64,000 nt of DNA. It comes from Verrucomicrobiota bacterium (lineage in GTDB: Bacteria > Verrucomicrobiota > Verrucomicrobiia > Verrucomicrobiales > DEV007). The translations under genes and the position numbers were made by a program. Under the pieces are notes generated by a model. It was given only the letters and a program-made list of their open reading frames with translations, was not told the origin of the DNA and did no database searches. Below are positions 56,343-57,455 of the stretch, piece by piece; positions within the stretch are counted from its first letter, which is position 1; the number at the start of each line of letters is the position of its first letter. Location: positions 232,399 through 296,398 of the forward strand of contig JAHDID010000002.1 in the NCBI GenBank assembly GCA_020630975.1. The letters run 5' to 3'.

Positions 56343-57455
56343 TTACTTGCCCTTTCCTTTACCCTTCCCTTTGCCTTTACCCTTGCTCTTACTTTTGCCT
56401 TTGCCGCCACGGCCATCGATCTCGCCGTCGCCATCGCGGTCTTCGCCGTAGGGCATACCATTCTCGAAGAAGACTCCCTCGCGGCGGCCAGCAGCGACAT
56501 GCTCGCTGTAGACTTTTCTCTCCTCAGAGGCCGCATAGGCATCGTTGGCAGCTAGCAGATCTTTCATCACCTGCTCGATAGGGGCAGACATCGAGACCGC
56601 TGTGATCACTTTGCCTTCCTGACCAAAGGTATCGGGCTGGATCACATAGAGAGTGGGGCTGGAGAGCTCGCTGTGCACACCTACTGCCTCGCGCCAGCCG
56701 GCGTCGGCATCGCCACTCGATAGATCGACGTGGAACTTTCCGATGATCGACTCGTGGCTAAAGACAGGCTTCAGCTTTTCCTGGGCAGCCGGCATCAGAT
56801 CGGCGGGGACATCGATGTAGGCGAGCAGCCGCTGGTCACCGGAGGATATATTTAGCGCTTGGCGAAAGGCATTAAAATCCTGTAGCTCTGCAGCGGATGG
56901 GTCGCCTTTTGGAGGGTAATCGGCGGCGATCTCATCGAGCCGCTCGATCAGCTCAGCATCACCGTCCTCAGGCATGGGGCCATTGCGCCCTAGCACGGAG
57001 GCAGGGCCGCGGCCACTGCGGGAGAGCCGCTTCTCGCCATCGGGACTGAGGATGCAGAATGCCGTATTGGCGAAGCTGCCGTTTAGGAACTTGCGCACCA
57101 TTTGCTGGTTTTCCTCGCTCTCGTAGGACTCGATGCGGATACAGACAAACTTGCGAGATAGGTCGATGAATTCTTTCTGTGAGAACAAACTGTTCTGCGT
57201 CTTGGCGTAGCCTGGTCAGAAGACGCCCGATATGCCCGAACAGGTGGCCGCTGCAGCCATGAAAAAGATCGGTCGCTGCGAGCGCTGCGCCTCAGCTAGG
57301 CCTGTCTCCCAGGTCGTGTACCAGGCGATACCAGCTTCGCCGATCGGCTGAGGATTAGCACCGAGCTCATCGGGGCGAGGACCCTGAGCATGAGCAGGGG
57401 AGAGTAGGAGGGTGGAGCAGGCTAGCGCTGCTGCGGCTAAGGCTATCGATCTCAT
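56343..57455 (-). CDS. Secreted thioredoxin-like selenoprotein (in-frame TGA as Sec)
   Basis: 371 codons including an internal TGA (57218-57216, codon 80). A signal peptide (ALAAAALACSTLLLSPAHA) precedes WYTTWETGLAEAQRSQRPIFF, a thioredoxin-like start. Then comes ATCSGISGVF, the TGA, and PGYAKTQNSLFSQKEFIDLS in the same frame. Homologues of this type that I recall carry Cys at the TGA position (GVWCPG-like), so a Cys-to-Sec swap in a redox motif is the best reading. The downstream part continues as one domain with no good start of its own. The tail has DRDGDGEIDG (Ca-binding-like) and a Gly-Lys repeat. It lies 49 bp after a lipoprotein gene. Confidence 0.75.
57182..57196 (-). promoter_or_regulatory. 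Candidate SECIS hairpin after the TGA
   Basis: Minus-strand arms AGAAC and GTTCT enclose AGTTT. The stem begins 19 nt after the TGA and the loop has a G in its first two positions; both fit the general form of bacterial SECIS elements. The stem is short (5 bp), so support is moderate. Confidence 0.5.

Follow-up and report, generated by a model that had tools for sequence, protein, structure and literature searches.

A predicted selenoprotein family with a thioredoxin fold and a conserved in-frame UGA in Verrucomicrobiota and Planctomycetota

We analysed a 64,000-nucleotide stretch of the genome of a Verrucomicrobiota bacterium (assembly GCA_020630975.1, contig JAHDID010000002.1, positions 232,399 to 296,398; hereafter the window) and found on its minus strand, from 57455 to 56343, a single 370-residue reading frame that ends with TAA and whose sole break is a TGA at 57216–57218 (codon 80). 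The corresponding frame of the plus strand has many stops. The sequence around the break is TCSGISGVF-U-PGYAKTQNSLFS, U being selenocysteine (Sec), and homology to relatives extends over almost the full length of the gene. Our results suggest, with a probability of about 0.92, that the gene encodes one selenoprotein in which the UGA of codon 80 is read as Sec, and that family members in both Verrucomicrobiota and Planctomycetota have retained this UGA. A preliminary description of the same stretch had pointed out two frames of one phase parted only by this TGA, with the strand left unstated, and had preferred Sec to a nonsense mutation. The single frame bears out the first observation; the preference agrees with the retention of TGA, with a homologue carrying Cys in place of Sec, with the Sec machinery of the genome and with a hairpin apparently under selection at the RNA level, as described below.

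To characterize the conservation of codon 80, the read-through protein was searched against 114 genomes, comprising the window's own genome and its relatives. The gene was found in 32 of these, 31 of them in the window's own family as grouped in that search. The codon aligned with codon 80 was TGA in all 30 loci fetched from the related genomes, own included, and two more matched genomes outside the fetched loci (G053 and G066) show one TGA in the search rows over the position. A second TGA or a TAG is seen in some rows; since the frame past codon 80 runs 259–291 codons to the next stop in the 30 aligned loci, these extra codons fall at the C terminus or past it, outside the Sec region. A scan of a public species-genome collection (84,980 species by its description) gave 82 relatives, with 80 loci kept. 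TGA was present in 79 of 79 loci covering codon 80, the 80th locus beginning downstream of it, and although the scan used the pattern [SP]GVFCPGY, translated with Cys codons, none of the 79 was a Cys form. According to record titles, the hosts include the Verrucomicrobiota Roseibacillus persicicus and Rubritalea marina together with many metagenome bins, and, among Planctomycetota, the complete genome of strain K23_9 and bins of Rhodopirellula, Mariniblastus and Fuerstiella; one bin is labelled Spirochaeta. The distribution is patchy, as a phylum-wide sample of 387 genomes contained the family in only three, the window's own genome and two others from its order. When all 109 loci were combined and reduced to distinct ones, 82 remained (own included), every one with TGA as codon 80.

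The preliminary description had expected homologues to carry Cys at this redox position and had proposed an alignment of homologues to check it. The alignment showed TGA in close and distant homologues, against a nonsense mutation or sequencing error; the expectation held for one protein, P0150 (365 aa, a database prediction), which has GMFCPGY with Cys at the TGA place and is 44% identical over 331 residues. It is the sole full-length protein that we found.

A hairpin resembling a selenocysteine insertion sequence (SECIS) follows the codon. It reads AGAACA-GUU-UGUUCU (57196–57182), begins 19 nucleotides (nt) past the TGA and has a G in its loop, as already noticed in the preliminary description. 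This G is the first loop base; the GUU loop starts 25 nt after the UGA in the window, and the loop GU sits 24–25 nt after it. The SECIS model of PMC13188914, as given in its model section, has a loop of 3–9 nt with G in one of the first two places, located 16–37 nt after the UGA, and the window hairpin agrees with it in both loop and distance. The energy of this single hairpin is not evidence here, and the case for it is comparative. For 75 of the 82 distinct loci, the fold of lowest energy contains the tested pairs. Codons +6 to +11 read mostly ACG CAG AAC AGT/GGT/CGT TTG/CTG TTC with scarcely any synonymous change, and in synonymous conservation they rank 2, 5, 3, 1, 7 and 4 among 317 codon columns. 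On a protein tree built with residues +4 to +14 left out, third-position changes at these six codons numbered 2, 0, 0, 0, 0 and 1, vs. 15–32 at the flanking codons. The loop dinucleotide GU is invariant (82/82), while the bases flanking it, nt27 and nt30, form A-U in 48 loci, G-C in 28, C-G in two, A-C in three and A-G in one; all seven changes inferred at nt27 end as a Watson-Crick pair. This is just the kind of loop contained in the PMC13188914 pattern N1-G-[G/U]-N-N2, in which N1 and N2 are paired. Whenever codon +9 is GGT (Gly; 28 loci), nt30 is C and CTG replaces TTG, a silent change that constraint on the protein would fail to explain. Taken together, these comparisons indicate a hairpin under RNA-level selection. 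In three members of the Rubritalea type (L112, L114, L125) EISL replaces QNSL; here the bases of the lower stem differ and the GU loop is kept.

The preliminary description had also proposed to search the genome for the Sec machinery, and all four components were present. Matches to selA (522 bits), selB (296.5 bits over pieces of one frame, with neighbours in frame counted), selD (301 bits) and tRNA-Sec (58.6 vs. a cut-off of 47) each exceed the curated cut-off. Among the 114 genomes, tRNA-Sec exceeded its cut-off in 68, some of them without selA, and its model also matched ordinary tRNAs, with 14 of 14 controls matched at an expect value (E) of 0.001 and five over the cut-off; selA was therefore chosen for the co-occurrence analysis. 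The selB and selD models likewise matched 14 of 14 controls, exceeding the cut-off in two, and only matches over the cut-off were counted. A selA match was found in 58 of the 114 genomes (55 over the cut-off) and in all 32 that bear the gene. In 31 of the latter the match is over the cut-off, and in the 32nd it is a 245-bit piece running from base 2 of its contig. The co-occurrence has a hypergeometric probability of 1.1e-12, a value that ignores kinship. We also checked 50 of the 80 scan host genomes: selA exceeded the cut-off in 43 and a piece at a contig end was seen in one more, and of the six left, three exceed the tRNA-Sec cut-off. Both selA and tRNA-Sec were detected in K23_9, Rubritalea marina and Roseibacillus persicicus. 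Sec insertion is well supported by these comparisons; in the mechanism that we envisage, SelB carrying Sec-tRNA-Sec would bind the hairpin and decode the UGA.

Several results weigh against reading codon 80 as Sec. The folding energy of the window hairpin (42 nt) is -6.7 kcal/mol with a z-score of -0.22, and 78 of 200 shuffled sequences fold equally well; for the 19-nt stretch z is -1.81. The energy also lies above the limit of -7.5 kcal/mol set in the SECIS model of PMC13188914, whose model section leaves unspecified the stretch to which the limit refers; 51 of the 82 distinct loci reach this limit and 31, own included, fall short. On the tree, only a single branch changes both loop-flanking bases, and A-C or A-G results from four of the ten nt30 changes, which makes the nt27/nt30 exchange look stepwise. 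Of the 32 gene-bearing genomes, just 23 had tRNA-Sec at its cut-off, in a reduced search with 33 candidates scored per genome. Three of the 50 scan host genomes gave neither selA nor tRNA-Sec, perhaps as incomplete assemblies. Finally, the selenoprotein case draws throughout on sequence comparison and a structure model.

In the predicted structure model, domain-wise comparison with VIA-align revealed two thioredoxin folds, in keeping with the thioredoxin-like protein of the preliminary description. The first domain, residues 39–181 (56913–57341), is of DsbD-gamma/Thioredoxin_7 type and bears the Sec, whereas the second, residues 189–307 (56535–56891), is without conserved Cys. The domain-wise result was used because the whole-model Foldseek search gave low TM-scores (0.20–0.28 by query length) among the 50 matches listed. 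The fold was taken from the model as an alignment-based sequence search of solved structures yielded five matches with E no greater than 1 (best 0.56), none of them a thioredoxin. In an alignment with Thioredoxin_7 proteins of the same genome, Sec80 falls on the first Cys of their CxxC motif. The motif of the family is C-x7-U-P-G-Y, with Tyr at the place of the CxxC partner and Cys eight residues before Sec. The latter, Cys72 (57240–57242), is a possible resolving cysteine by its conservation: the position is Cys in 80 of the 82 distinct loci, in all 30 aligned members from related genomes and in P0150. Two members are without Cys at -8; in L105 a Cys stands two residues before Sec, and in L084 one residue further upstream.

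The protein is predicted to be exported, with a putative signal peptide at residues 1–23 (MRSIALAAAALACSTLLLSPAHA; 57387–57455); the N terminus was judged by eye, and the model places a helix at residues 3–17 with low confidence there. Once exported, it would fold as two thioredoxin-like domains, the first of which would have Sec80 at the place of the CxxC nucleophile. As the CxxC partner is Tyr, a selenenyl intermediate would probably be resolved by Cys72 or by an outside thiol. With Sec at the nucleophile place and this mode of resolution, the most likely activity, at the level of a guess from fold and motif, would be that of an extracytoplasmic thiol/peroxide oxidoreductase. Instead of such peroxidase-like chemistry, Sec could serve in a disulfide reductase or isomerase acting on exported proteins, similar to protein disulfide isomerase (PDI) or DsbD; we consider this a serious candidate, at a little under even odds. 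The place of the second CxxC cysteine is without Cys, and Thr or Ser stands at the expected cis-proline site (assigned by eye and by motif), both of which speak against it.

Comparison with known families suggested that we are dealing with a new family of thioredoxin-fold selenoproteins, as judged by family models and motifs. In no NCBIfam or Pfam family among its matches did the window protein reach the cut-off score. The DsbD gamma domain, DsbH and Thioredoxin_7 (PF13899) share the fold of residues 39–181 and the alignment of Sec with their first Cys, but the new family is without the second Cys of CxxC. With E of 1 or below, PF13899 matched every one of the 30 members (lowest E 0.00035), while the window protein scored 17.9 bits vs. 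a gathering cut-off of 27. The VPGUxxT selenoproteins (NF041382, NF041383) have a Thioredoxin_7-like domain as well, and in a true member from the same genome, L133, TGA likewise occupies the first-Cys place of CxxC; in contrast, the new family has C-x7-U-P-G-Y, an insertion before Sec and a second thioredoxin domain. The window protein reached 11.3 bits vs. a cut-off of 350 for VPGUxxT type 1, and type 2 was not among its matches; over the 30 members the best E values were 0.0004 and 0.0065 for types 1 and 2, respectively. The Trx7/PDZ selenoprotein (NF041199), also with a Thioredoxin_7 domain, has the motif CxxU according to Table 1 of PMC13188914; the window protein scored 10.7 bits vs. 300, and the best of the 30 members had an E of 0.0086. 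No U-P-G-Y motif is listed in that table, which belongs to a 2026 review and covers 119 selenoprotein families as counted there, some entries being given without a motif.

Iodothyronine deiodinases have U-P-P-F, which resembles U-P-G-Y. The family of these and of deiodinase-like selenoproteins, PF00837, is absent from the 12 Pfam families to which the 30 members gave matches with E of 1 or less. We found no description of the family in the literature, judging by titles and abstract openings among the matches listed. The selenoproteins of a Rhodopirellula genome are tabulated in the supplement to PMC4807772, and it is possible that the family was listed there earlier, unnamed.

Further frames with an in-frame TGA were seen in the same genome. 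L133 itself (1408–2349, contig C93) has VPGUAGC with an in-frame TGA and scores 365 bits vs. the NF041383 cut-off of 275, which makes it VPGUxxT type 2. L134 (1324–2577, contig C57) is a Thioredoxin_7-like frame with an in-frame TGA in HPCGETUNNGV and a predicted GGUC-loop hairpin after it; no NCBIfam family exceeded its cut-off, and the frame is a second candidate for an unnamed selenoprotein. L131 (553–1854, contig C157) is DsbD-like, with TGA replacing the first Cys of CxxC in DWULQCK, and matches the DsbD and TsoB models under their cut-offs.

The UGA could alternatively be an ordinary stop, giving a short exported peptide and a separate C-terminal protein re-initiated at the TTG within the hairpin (57186–57188), perhaps as a selenium-dependent attenuation device. 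A conserved hairpin past a stop could indeed be regulatory, and both the list of open reading frames (ORFs) and the database callers begin the second part at this TTG. Two wide protein searches gave 188 and 225 matches; from the 120 top-ranked entries of either list we fetched 148 homologues, of which 107 start at the hairpin's Leu codon, their first residues being MFS, LFS, MFA or LFA. None of the 148 spans the Sec and all are without G-x-F-x-P-G-Y, in line with the earlier expectation that gene callers would split the family; P0150 came from a third search, restricted to residues 30–110, which gave two matches among 12 candidates. Readable source names among the listed matches are hypothetical or uncharacterized protein. 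The preliminary description had seen no plausible start for the second part, which does not hold in so far as the TTG at 57188 is used as one, but the codon lies within the hairpin and is TTG in only 48 of the 82 distinct loci, being replaced in 34 (CTG 31, GTG 2, GAG 1). A stop would, moreover, cut the first thioredoxin domain of the model through its active site, the Cys form P0150 is continuous as one protein, and the presence of the gene tracks selA. We thus regard an ordinary stop as very improbable.

Nonsense mutation, gene decay or sequencing error, the commonest causes of a stop inside a frame, are refuted by conservation and keep only a negligible probability: TGA is identical in all distinct loci, among close and distant relatives alike, the 29 aligned relatives retain it at only 44–59% identity to the window's protein, and codon choice nearby is frozen. 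Decoding of the UGA as another residue, through a changed code or simple readthrough, would likewise keep the frame open, but it is equally remote, given that other members of the family terminate on TGA, that gene presence tracks selA, that the SECIS-like hairpin appears to be under selection and that the non-UGA form found carries Cys.

Beyond the two domains, residues 339–347 (56415–56441) form an acidic motif resembling a calcium loop, DRDGDGEID, which is followed by a Gly/Lys-rich tail. D339, D343, G344 and D347 are invariant in the 30-member alignment, and the EF-hand_5 and EF-hand_1 models each match four of the 30 members. When flanking ORFs of the 80 scan loci were clustered, neighbour genes gave no functional hint: the biggest clusters consisted of the gene and of frames that overlap it, and the biggest non-overlapping ones comprised 18, 12 and 9 of the 80 loci, at variable distance and strand.

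With reading of codon 80 as Sec, a selenoprotein family of more than 80 distinct loci in two phyla, cut short by gene callers, would be added to those known. Hairpin energies short of the limit in the SECIS model of PMC13188914, in the window and in the other loci mentioned above, may explain its escape from predictors. We tentatively propose, at clearly less than even odds, an almost Sec-only family of the Planctomycetes-Verrucomicrobia-Chlamydiae (PVC) group: an exported double-thioredoxin enzyme whose C-x7-U-P-G-Y centre, without the resolving Cys of CxxC or the usual cis-proline, would perform a one-selenium chemistry (reduction of peroxides or outside substrates) that Cys seldom replaces, and which would help to keep the Sec machinery in host genomes. 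As the gene occurs in database records for Rubritalea marina, Roseibacillus persicicus and the planctomycete K23_9, it is testable in cultures, and the near absence of Cys forms would make the family well suited to probing what chemistry is open to Sec but not to Cys.
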